Below are positions 29,371 to 63,966 of a stretch of 64,000 nt of DNA, piece after piece (positions within the stretch are counted from its first letter, which is position 1; each line of letters starts with the position of its first letter). The translations under genes were made by a program, and so were the position numbers. A model generated the notes under the pieces. That model made no database searches. It had not been told where the DNA came from and was given only the letters and a program-made list of their open reading frames with translations. Source of the stretch: Terriglobus albidus (lineage in GTDB: Bacteria > Acidobacteriota > Terriglobia > Terriglobales > Acidobacteriaceae); assembly GCF_008000815.1 (NCBI RefSeq), contig NZ_CP042806.1:4216001-4280000 (forward strand), read 5' to 3'.

Positions 29371-29527
29371 GTAGTGGTTTCGCTTCGTGCAGCCATACTT
29401 CCTACGCGAACGACTCTTCAAAAGAGATCGGCGCCAGTGATTGGGACAGTAAAAGCCGGGCCCATGTCCCCGAGGGACGAGGGGCACCCAGTGCATGGGT
29501 TGTTCGAGATTGGTTGATTCCCTTCGA

Positions 29528-29555
29528 GCAACCAGGAACTAACAACCAGCAACTC
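29528..29555 (+). repeat. Degenerate heptad array (NAACYRG family), 4 units
   Basis: Four consecutive 7-base units (GCAACCA, GGAACTA, ACAACCA, GCAACTC) in the 3' intergenic space between ubiX and the alpha/beta hydrolase. They match the same heptad found at five other places in this window. The rest of 29371-29558 shows no gene or clear hairpin. Confidence 0.75.
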
Positions 29556-33513: not shown

Positions 33514-33534
33514 ACAACCAGCAACCAGCAACTA
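33514..33534 (+). repeat. Degenerate heptad array (NAACYRG family), 3 units
   Basis: Three 7-base units (ACAACCA, GCAACCA, GCAACTA) at the 3' ends of the convergent TonB-like and DedA-rhodanese genes. They finish 3 bp before the DedA-rhodanese stop codon. Confidence 0.75.
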
Positions 33535-59857: not shown

Positions 59858-59860
59858 CAG

Positions 59861-59881
59861 TTGCTGGTTGCTAGTTGCTAG
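59861..59881 (-). repeat. Degenerate heptad array (NAACYRG family, reverse), 3 units
   Basis: Units TTGCTGG, TTGCTAG, TTGCTAG. A 14 bp part is complementary to the array at 59948-59982, so the two could pair across a 66 bp gap. Confidence 0.75.
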
Positions 59882-59947
59882 TGTCCTGAGTTTAAAGTTC
59901 GCACCATCAATGCCAAAGTGTAGACGACGACATTCTGGGTGTTCCAT

Positions 59948-59982
59948 CAACTAGCAACCAGAAACCAGTAACTAGGAACTAG
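59948..59982 (+). repeat. Degenerate heptad array (NAACYRG family), 5 units
   Basis: Units CAACTAG, CAACCAG, AAACCAG, TAACTAG, GAACTAG. The last contains the TAG stop codon (read on the minus strand) of the redoxin-like gene. The 66 bp between the two arrays (59882-59947) show no gene. Confidence 0.78.
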
Positions 59983-61523: not shown

Positions 61524-61916
61524 TTATTTGCTCATGACCTTTTCCAGAGCCTGCTTGATCTGGGGACCGACGCGATCCAGCTCCAGGAGGTGCCGATCAA
61601 CAAGGCGCATGAGGATGCGCTCTCCGCGTGGCGTAAGCTTCAACACAACTCTGCGGGCATCAATCAGATCACGCTTGCGAAGCAAGAGCCCTTCTTCGAC
61701 GGCACGGCCAACCAGCTCCACCGCGGAGTTGTGCTTCAGGTACATCCGTTCGGCAACGTAGGCTATTGTTGGCTCCGTTGCCGCAAAGACAACCTGCATA
61801 AGCTGGTATTGCTGGGCATGAATTCCCTCTTCCGCAGCGGCTTCCTCACTGAAGAAGAGAAAGCCGCGCAGGGTGTGGCGGAACTCGACCAGGCGTTCAA
61901 AGCGATTCGCGTTCAT
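61524..61916 (-). CDS. MarR-family transcriptional regulator
   Basis: A 130-residue winged-helix regulator. The HTH is in EPTIAYVAERMYLKHNSAVELVGRAVEEGLLLRKRDLIDAR and the wing in VVLKLTPRGERILMRL. MarR proteins bind as dimers to palindromes and release DNA with phenolic or oxidative ligands. A perfect 7-3-7 inverted repeat starts 5 bp upstream of its ATG, a likely autoregulatory operator. No ribosome-binding site precedes the start, so the message may be leaderless. It lies 56 bp after the DUF2007 start on the same strand. Confidence 0.9.
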   Translation of the reverse strand: MNANRFERLVEFRHTLRGFLFFSEEAAAEEGIHAQQYQLMQVVFAATEPTIAYVAERMYLKHNSAVELVGRAVEEGLLLRKRDLIDARRVVLKLTPRGERILMRLVDRHLLELDRVGPQIKQALEKVMSK

Positions 61917-61920
61917 GTTT

Positions 61921-61937
61921 ATATCGTATCACGATAT
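61921..61937. promoter_or_regulatory. Probable MarR operator
   Basis: A perfect inverted repeat (ATATCGT, spacer ATC, ACGATAT) 5 bp before the MarR-type gene's ATG. A -10-like TACGAT lies within it on the minus strand. Both support repression of a leaderless autoregulated gene. This is inferred from position and symmetry only. Confidence 0.6.
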
Positions 61938-61944
61938 TTAAAAA

Positions 61945-61972
61945 CAGTTGCCAGTTTACAGTTTCCAGTTGA
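61945..61972 (-). repeat. Degenerate heptad array (NAACYRG family, reverse), 4 units
   Basis: Units CAGTTGC, CAGTTTA, CAGTTTC, CAGTTGA, reading as AACTG-type heptads on the minus strand. It lies between the MarR gene and the long array at 62047, in the opposite orientation to that array. Confidence 0.7.
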
Positions 61973-62046
61973 CGAGCTACGGCATGGGCGCGCCCTGCAT
62001 TCTCAACACACCAGCTCAGGCAACCCATCGCTGTATCGCTAGTCCA

Positions 62047-62242
62047 AACTGGCAACTGGCAACTGGCAACTGGCAACTGGCAACTGGCAACTGGCAACTG
62101 GCAACTGGCAACTGGCAACTGGCAACTGGCAACTGGCAACTGGCAACTGGCAACTGGCAACTGGCAACTGGCAACTGGCAACTGGCAACTGGCAACTGGC
62201 AACTGGCAACTGGCAACTGGCAACTGGCAACTGGCAACTGGC
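62047..62242 (+). repeat. Perfect tandem heptanucleotide array (AACTGGC)28
   Basis: Exactly 28 perfect copies of AACTGGC (196 bp) with no substitutions. It occupies most of the 365 bp MarR-purB interval, ending 39 bp before the purB start. The remaining parts of the interval hold the MarR operator, a short reverse heptad array and about 75 bp without recognisable features. Length should vary easily by slippage. Confidence 0.97.
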
Positions 62243-62281
62243 TCTCCGGTAAACTAGTGTTTTCAGGGAGAATTTCACGGA

Positions 62282-63592
62282 ATGATCGCGCGCTATACCC
62301 GCCCGGAGATGGGCAAGATCTGGTCTGACGAGAGCAAGTTTGGCTCCTGGCTGAAGGTGGAGCTGGCGGCCACAGATGTACTGGCCGAGCATGGCATTGT
62401 TCCCAAAGAGGCTGCCGTTGAGCTGCGCGCCAAGGCGAAGTTCGATGTCGACCGCATCCGTGAGATCGAGCTGGATACGCGCCATGACGTCATTGCGTTT
62501 ACGACCAACGTCGCCGAGAACGTAGGGCCTGCCTCGCGCTGGCTGCACTATGGCCTGACCTCGACCGATGTAGTCGATACCGCTCAGGCGCTGCAACTGG
62601 CCGCCGCCAATGCGATTCTCCGCGAGGGCATCCTGAAGCTGATCCTGGTGCTGAAGCGCCGCGCGCTCGAGTTCAAGCACACGCCCATGATCGGCCGCAC
62701 GCACGGCGTCCACGCCGAGCCGACGACTTATGGCCTGCGTCTGTTGCTCTGGTACGCCGAGATGCATCGCAACCTCAAGCGCTTCGACGCGGCAGCGGAA
62801 GATATGCGTGTCGGCAAGCTTTCGGGCGCCGTCGGCAGCTTCGGCCACCTGAAGCCAGAGCATGAAGAGCGCATCTGCGCGTCTCTTGGTTTGCAGTCTG
62901 CTTCGGTTTCGACTCAGGTGCTGCAACGCGACCGCCACGCCGCCTATATCGCCACGCTAGCCGTCATTGCGAGCACCCTGGACAAGATCGCGCTTGATAT
63001 CCGTCATCTGCAGCGCACGGAGGTGCGCGAGGCAGAGGAGTTCTTCTCTGCCAAACAGAAGGGGTCGAGCGCCATGCCGCACAAGCGCAATCCCATCACC
63101 TGCGAGAACATCTGCGGCCTGGCTCGCGTGATCCGCGGCAATGCGCAGGTCGCGCTGGAGAACGTGGCCCTATGGCACGAACGGGATATCTCCCACTCGT
63201 CGGCCGAACGCGTCATTTTGCCCGATACGACCATCGCCCTCGACTACATCCTGGATAAGACCTCCAACCTGATCGACAAGCTGCTGGTCTACCCGCACCG
63301 TATGATGAAGAACCTGGAGCTGACGGGCGGTCTGGTCTTCTCTGGCCAGCTTCTGTTGGATCTGGCGGAGTCCGGAATGCTGCGTGAGGATGCTTACAAG
63401 CTGGTCCAGTCGCATGCAATGGCCGCATGGGCAAGCGAAGGTGAAGGCCCCACGTTCAAGGACAGGATTGCCACCGATCCTGAGGTCACCAAGCGTCTGT
63501 CACCGGAGAAGATTGCACTGGCATTTACCTTTGAGCGGCAGCTTGCGAATGTAGACACAATCTTCGAGCGTGTATTAAGCGAACATGCTTAG
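62282..63592 (+). CDS. purB: Adenylosuccinate lyase
   Basis: A 436-residue fumarase/aspartase-superfamily lyase that cleaves SAICAR and adenylosuccinate in purine synthesis. The superfamily signature GSSAMPHKRNPI is near residue 261. TSTDVVDTAQALQL and IGRTHGVHAEPTTYGLRL carry active-site His and Thr. Start ATG at 62282 follows AGGGAG. A -10-like TAAACT lies at 62250-62255, so a -35 element would fall inside the heptanucleotide array upstream. The unknown small gene starts 2 bp after its stop. Confidence 0.97.
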   Translation: MIARYTRPEMGKIWSDESKFGSWLKVELAATDVLAEHGIVPKEAAVELRAKAKFDVDRIREIELDTRHDVIAFTTNVAENVGPASRWLHYGLTSTDVVDTAQALQLAAANAILREGILKLILVLKRRALEFKHTPMIGRTHGVHAEPTTYGLRLLLWYAEMHRNLKRFDAAAEDMRVGKLSGAVGSFGHLKPEHEERICASLGLQSASVSTQVLQRDRHAAYIATLAVIASTLDKIALDIRHLQRTEVREAEEFFSAKQKGSSAMPHKRNPITCENICGLARVIRGNAQVALENVALWHERDISHSSAERVILPDTTIALDYILDKTSNLIDKLLVYPHRMMKNLELTGGLVFSGQLLLDLAESGMLREDAYKLVQSHAMAAWASEGEGPTFKDRIATDPEVTKRLSPEKIALAFTFERQLANVDTIFERVLSEHA

Positions 63593-63594
63593 AT

Positions 63595-63966
63595 ATGGCG
63601 CGGATCTGGGTTGAACGTTCCAAGTATCAGCGGTCGATGCCAATGGGCTGGACTCGATTCCAAGAGAGACCTCGTTCACCCCATGACTTCCGCGGACTTG
63701 AAACCTGGTACGTCCGCGTATGTTCCTTTACGTTTCGATTTACAAACATCCAACAACTGGAGGCGTGTCTTTTGTATTACGGCCAGAAGACACGCTCGAC
63801 CAGCAAGCTCCCTTATCGCGAGATTAAGCCCTTCATCGAGTTAGGATTGCGCGGCTGGGAGATCGAACGCTGGTTTGAACGTCTTCCCATGTATCTTCTC
63901 GAAGAACCGAAGAGGCAGAAGGTTGTAAAAGCCCTAACATTGGCACACCGACAATGGAAGGCTTGA
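63595..63966 (+). CDS. Hypothetical protein
   Basis: A 123-residue basic protein that I do not recognise. It is rich in Arg, Trp, Phe and Tyr (WVERSKYQRSMPMGWTRF; VRVCSFTFRFTNIQQLEACLLYYGQKTR; ELGLRGWEIERWFERLP). There is no signal peptide or transmembrane helix. The start lies 2 bp after the purB stop, suggesting co-transcription. Codon use is plausible but somewhat less GC-biased than in purB, which could indicate a recent origin. Confidence in the gene is moderate. Confidence 0.55.
   Translation: MARIWVERSKYQRSMPMGWTRFQERPRSPHDFRGLETWYVRVCSFTFRFTNIQQLEACLLYYGQKTRSTSKLPYREIKPFIELGLRGWEIERWFERLPMYLLEEPKRQKVVKALTLAHRQWKA

Follow-up and report, generated by a model that had tools for sequence, protein, structure and literature searches.

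The perfect AACTGGC array upstream of purB in Terriglobus albidus belongs, as its right arm, to an imperfectly palindromic intergenic element that is dispersed in the genome and not specific to purB. We consider it probable (about 0.8) that this arm of the element was lengthened in place. The window analysed was a stretch of 64,000 nucleotides from the T. albidus genome (G000; a single contig of 6,405,582 bases, 99.74% complete). An earlier note on this DNA had described a perfect (AACTGGC)28 array, and the description was borne out: Tandem Repeats Finder placed the array at 62047-62242 on the forward strand with period 7, 28.0 copies, 100% matches, 0% indels and a score of 392, in agreement with the sequence. 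As also stated there, the array ends 39 bp before the ATG of the downstream gene (62282), and a -10-like TAAACT is present at 62250-62255 on the forward strand. The identification of this gene as purB was upheld by a match to TIGR00928 of 537 bits against a cut-off of 326.2; it encodes an adenylosuccinate lyase of 436 aa (62282-63592, forward strand) with PF00206 and PF10397 domains.

Upstream of the element, a 130 aa MarR-like regulator gene is divergent from purB (61524-61916, reverse strand). It was assigned by weak NCBIfam matches, all below cut-off (HpaR, 27.2 bits against a cut-off of 121.2), and the Pfam search with this protein gave no match. The palindrome ATATCGTATCACGATAT (61921-61937) precedes this gene and could be its autoregulatory operator. 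It is identical or similar in the sister species G403, G273 and G407. The array itself is beyond chance. It is the sole perfect period-7 array of at least four units in a sample of 464 kb of the T. albidus genome (20 stretches of 20 kb and the window), in which only one further perfect array, of four 8-base units, was seen at periods 4-12. With a seven-base unit in tandem between two genes, it resembles the heptameric long simple sequence repeats. In cyanobacteria such repeats carry the name STRR.

Three consecutive AACTGGC units occur 57 times in forward and 64 times in reverse orientation in the T. albidus genome, distributed over several arrays, and the reversed-pattern control gave 0. Most of the arrays inspected in this genome are parts of one dispersed element. 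In the window, (AACTGGC)28 is preceded by an inverted heptad run at a distance of 76 bp. This left arm (61945-61970, forward strand) has four CAGTT heptad units (CAGTTGC CAGTTTA CAGTTTC CAGTT) inverted with respect to the array; the scanner described below pairs the four-unit run with the array, and the run recurs in aligned copies. Between the arms is a core (61971-62046, forward strand) with the blocks GACGAG..TACGGCATGGGC, CTCAACACACC, CAGGCAACCC and TAGTCC, which are common to other copies. A DNA search with the window element found seven full or nearly full-length matches in the T. albidus genome, itself included, and partial ones in addition. In an alignment of 14 copies from T. albidus and G273, the typical left arm is the short inverted heptad run CAGTTGCCAGTTAACAGTTTCCAGTT and the minimal right arm is AACTGGCAACTG, followed in some copies by CTTTT. 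Arms and core together measure about 120 bp without expansion. Right arms of 9, 12-13, 26 and 35 units were seen in four other T. albidus copies. One copy in this genome carries 12-13 units of AACTGCC, and therefore a changed unit can be one that spreads. The window element lies between two gene starts. A DNA-similarity search of 150 genomes of the family, with at most five candidates scored per genome, found the element only in T. albidus, G273 and, weakly, G423. The region after purB also differs between species: in G273 a copy of the element begins at the purB stop codon (L104, 5622-5736), in G403 a degenerate element follows purB directly, and in T. albidus a 123 aa ORF with no Pfam or NCBIfam match is found there instead (window 63595-63966).

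The orthologous gaps between the MarR-like gene and purB contain 28 perfect AACTGGC units in T. albidus, 2 in G403 and 2 in G273. These numbers support the recent expansion proposed in the earlier note, in this lineage. At the nucleotide level, purB of G403, G273 and G407 is 90.4%, 89.4% and 82.2% identical to that of T. albidus. The G273 gap has the core with exactly two right-arm units and a left arm of another type. With arm type (C, A, T or G) taken as the base next to [AG]GTT, its left arm is of A type and its right arm of C type; thus, the arms do not always match. Two units without a recognisable core are present in the G403 gap, and no such element was seen on reading the G407 gap. T. 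albidus, G403 and G273 are identical in the final two units, in the spacer and in TAAACT, which is found in G407 as well. As in the heptameric long simple sequence repeats, length differs among close relatives, here between species, at purB and at several other sites. Longest perfect runs at three other orthologous sites are 26 (T. albidus), 11 (G403) and 9 (G405) units; 35 (T. albidus) and 16 (G403); and 2 (T. albidus) and 13 (G403). At another site T. albidus has no perfect run, G403 has 18 units (cut by a contig end), G405 has 10 and G273 has 7 variant units, and at yet another 9 units in T. albidus correspond to no perfect repeat in G273. At site c1574993 in G273 (L173), where G403 and G405 carry AACTGGC arrays, there are 7 units with a changed base in the register CATCTGG, so the mutated unit spread through the array.

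Among elements with the core of the window, all 12 runs of at least seven units lie in the right arm, as judged by reading the sequences (5 in T. albidus, 4 in G403, 2 in G405 and 1 in G273). The right arm would begin as about two identical AACTGGC units and reach seven or more at several sites, and the left arm, with units unlike one another, would stay at about four. Slippage during replication would be the simplest mechanism for this growth. It would need a pair of identical units, and such a pair is present next to a left arm whose units are unlike. For purB the expansion is probably near-neutral, because the two promoter-proximal units are unchanged in relatives that have only two. Against the in-place account, unequal recombination would leave the same trace as slippage. 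Two T. albidus arrays of 16 and 19 units (607054 and 614270) have no adjoining left arm in the stretch inspected; thus, not every array fits the element neatly. In G273 a T-type element at site o6400275 carries one arm of 9 units, and growth is therefore not confined to the core found in the window.

To place the element among similar ones, a scanner was used that pairs [AG]GTT and AAC[CT] at period 7, with at least five units in all and arms 15-260 bases apart. In stretches of five genomes it found 50 inverted heptad-arm pairs (T. albidus 21, G273 13, G403 6, G405 7 and G407 3) and 0 in the same stretches reversed; many of the stretches had been chosen for heptads, and the count of 50 is not a density. 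The types of the two arms agree in 44 of the 50 pairs, compared with 18.1 on average and at most 30 in 5000 shuffles. Runs of A and T type were enriched against the reversed control, at 72/2 in T. albidus, 177/4 in G273, 80/0 in G403, 110/2 in G405 and 6/0 in G407. With genes from our own ORF caller, an arm is found at 6 bp or less from 20 of 30 facing stop codons. The Xanthomonas-type arrangement, in which inverted pairs of about four units are placed near stop codons, is thus present here (50 against 0; 20/30). Convergent genes surround 10 of the 23 pairs classified, with genes from the same crude ORF caller and after 4 of 27 pairs that could not be placed had been dropped. The p value is 0.04 or 0.07 depending on the background used, and a strong preference for convergent genes is not claimed; adjacency to stop codons is the firmer result.

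The window holds a second heptad-armed element, of T type, between convergent ORFs (59859-59980). The stop codon of the right-hand ORF is inside its arm, and a T-type element is found at the corresponding place in G273. Heptad runs of T type without a detected inverted partner are seen at 29530-29554 and 33516-33534, the former after a REP-like palindrome near 29460-29500. In the 464 kb sample of T. albidus, 4 runs of at least four units were found, all of them in the window and 0 in the 20 stretches of 20 kb, with 0 in the reversed control; runs of three units numbered 8 against 2 in the control. No genome-wide density is therefore given.

Flanking sequences of 14 sites were searched for in G273, G403, G405 and G407, and the regions between them were read. 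At most readable sites each species has some insert, but its type often differs. Site s816647 of G407 is occupied by an ordinary hairpin, then T, instead of the element. For a table of turnover, 36 of the 50 arm pairs could be assigned to 12 sites where two or more genomes have pairs; the table omits the purB site and others whose arms are mixed, single or undetected, and c769140 in T. albidus, whose left arm has one G and one C unit, was entered as type C by hand. At 6 of the 12 orthologous sites compared, two or more species differ in arm type. Among orthologous cores the normalised score averaged 0.53 for pairs of the same type (n=19, range 0.13-0.96) and 0.14 for pairs of different type (n=23, at most 0.22); the latter value is also the median for cores from unrelated sites (0.14, n=588). 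Since cores of different type score as unrelated ones do, arms and core seem to be exchanged together, the neighbouring genes staying orthologous. In 6 of the 19 pairs of the same type the score is no higher than 0.26, and hence cores also diverge while the type stays the same. Some elements in G273 are mosaic or nested. A single core common to all elements was considered and rejected: scores above 0.45 between sites were obtained for 11/198 pairs of C type, 0/11 of A type and 0/18 of T type.

The earlier note had gone further and had proposed that the array and TAAACT form a promoter in which the array supplies the -35 region and upstream sequence, and that unit number could tune expression. 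A promoter at this position is plausible, TAAACT being kept in all four aligned orthologues, but the sigma-70 consensus scan upstream of purB gave no promoter match; a consensus scan of the gap found no terminator. Species with two units share the spacer and the final two units with T. albidus, and the -35/-10 interval is thus independent of unit number. Tuning of purB went unsupported, with comparable arm expansions at several unrelated T. albidus sites. The 26 extra units move the MarR side and the upstream DNA about 180 bp further from purB. Unit number might act on purB or on the MarR-like gene through regulator access or the geometry of upstream DNA, with selection keeping the variability. 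The place of the array between the two genes, with a palindrome before the MarR-like gene, its variable length among sister species and the conserved TAAACT are in line with such a contingency repeat. However, contingency repeats alter promoter spacing or reading frame, and this array lies outside purB with identical spacing in T. albidus, G403 and G273; the similar expansions at gene ends elsewhere in the genome and the missing consensus match also make the proposal improbable. Judged from sequence, tuning specific to purB would be possible but is unlikely. Still less credible is an artefact of assembly, with a small true unit number. Tandem arrays are error-prone and T. albidus was judged from its assembly, but the genome is a single contig at 99.74% completeness, arrays of differing lengths occur at several of its sites, and the assemblies of G403 and G405 have 9-18 perfect units at orthologous sites.

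The element may, tentatively, be a TA-targeting miniature transposable element (MITE) of the ERIC-like kind, with the array as a by-product of transposition. Its short size, inverted ends and intergenic location agree with this, as do the mosaic or nested elements in G273 and a TA in the 9 bases preceding the left arm, seen in 11 of the 14 copies with a matched left arm. The TA is confounded with the stop codons TAA and TAG, however, and none of the sister-species regions compared showed a clean empty site with target duplication. Cores of A and T types are not common to different sites, and the 7 Y1-transposase genes have no adjoining heptad runs of at least four units, in a search limited to this transposase family; on the whole we regard transposition as possible but doubtful. 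Type I end pairs listed, by exact patterns only, lie close together and none is at transposon length. Mobilisation by RAYT was rejected: no heptad run of at least four units lies within about 1.5 kb of the 7 PF01797 genes of T. albidus. A known RNA family was likewise rejected, Rfam giving one match below the gathering score (20.3 against 40 bits, E 2) and none above. Single copies fold better than shuffles (z -1.07 to -3.96 for six strands), but compensatory change is seen in only 1 of 21 predicted pairs of the 14-copy alignment, and a selected RNA structure is therefore not claimed. Lengthening of the right arm in place stands as the preferred reading.

A pattern of three units and two inverted ones separated by 50-80 bases was found in 148 of 398 genomes of the family; it may count the same element repeatedly and on either strand, and control matches were noticed in three genomes (G427, G433 and G680). 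In a phylum-wide draw it was present in 61 of 396 genomes, with control matches in several as well; G243, which is rich in the reversed motif, had 0 matches and 35 control matches. Because of the control matches outside the family, no claim is made for the phylum. Direct AACTGNN arrays of four units were present in 44 of 396 genomes. Many inverted AGTT-type heptad matches were seen in the distant Acidobacteriota G285 (116 forward, 147 reverse, control 0), G259, G063 and G172. An inverted arm of two units was found within 300 bp in 13 of 56 stretches from named genomes that contain three AACTGGC units, and the majority of these short arrays elsewhere are thus not assignable to the class. G405 is a public MAG, Acidobacteriaceae bacterium isolate Bin6.3: a 451-base stretch of G405:C97 is present letter for letter in JABFXN010000096.1.

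Taken by itself the array is of modest interest, less than the class of elements to which it belongs and the exchange of such elements between sister species. One odd array has exposed a class of elements that occurs across a bacterial family. The sister genomes provide natural experiments, with 2 against 28 units at one promoter and differing arm types at the same stop codon, and thus it can be tested directly how arrays expanded over time and how whole elements were exchanged. In the accessible text of the open-licence literature, no description of these elements in Acidobacteria was found. ERIC, RUP, Correia and similar repeats are below 200 bp, intergenic and strongly paired, with inverted ends and TA at many termini (PMC2229807, in the part available). 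The present element is like the ERIC-like repeats in size, inverted ends, TA termini, strong pairing and intergenic place, but its arms are heptad arrays able to expand, and target duplication and a partner transposase are putative here. BrickBuilt, a MITE of Porphyromonas gingivalis, has an internal minisatellite with a 23-base unit between leader and tail (PMC4596501, available portion). In both cases a tandem array lies within a dispersed intergenic inverted-repeat element, but here the array is itself one arm. REP or GTAG palindromes with RAYT or TIRYT transposases are also palindromic and intergenic, their termini may supply a stop codon, and TIRYT genes are reported in Acidobacteria (PMC3733652, in the text available); unlike these, no heptad runs accompany the 7 Y1-transposase genes of T. 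albidus.

Two heptamer systems come closer. TAACTGA direct repeats of Beggiatoaceae, Cyanobacteria and Bacteroidetes are intergenic and reach 43 copies in some species; according to the accessible part of PMC4679880 they lie mostly just before start codons and are almost never inverted, with one inverted repeat reported. They share with the present repeats the heptamer, the AACT centre (a TAACTGA tandem contains AACTGAT) and the intergenic place, whereas the arms described here are inverted and often abut stop codons. The nearest relative found is the GGGAATC heptad of Xanthomonas, which has the same layout of heptads, inverted pairs and proximity to stop codons (PMC4692102, as far as its available text extends; Calothrix heptanucleotides are mentioned there too). 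Those arrays mostly have four units, some being much longer; 70 and 75 inverted close pairs occur in two species, mostly intergenic and near or overlapping stop codons, with species-dependent lengths, and the G-rich unit forms quadruplexes. The centre here is AGTT/AACT without a G-tract, and the window array has no run of three G or C that could form a quadruplex. Exchange of arms and core as a whole at orthologous sites, as seen here, does not appear in the accessible text of PMC4692102. Heptad-armed inverted repeats at gene ends might form a recurrent bacterial class with units that differ between phyla (AGTT-centred here, GGGAATC in Xanthomonas, perhaps TAACTGA), in which some process renews arms and core together and swaps the type at the same site with the neighbouring genes fixed. 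We think such a class rather unlikely; if it were real, quadruplex formation would not be the reason for the Xanthomonas repeats. Heptads without G-tracts are in any case a counterpart to those of Xanthomonas and bear on whether quadruplexes explain them. We class the element as one of the heptad-repeat kind that works like a small palindromic intergenic repeat, its AGTT/AACT-centred variant without a G-tract being new.
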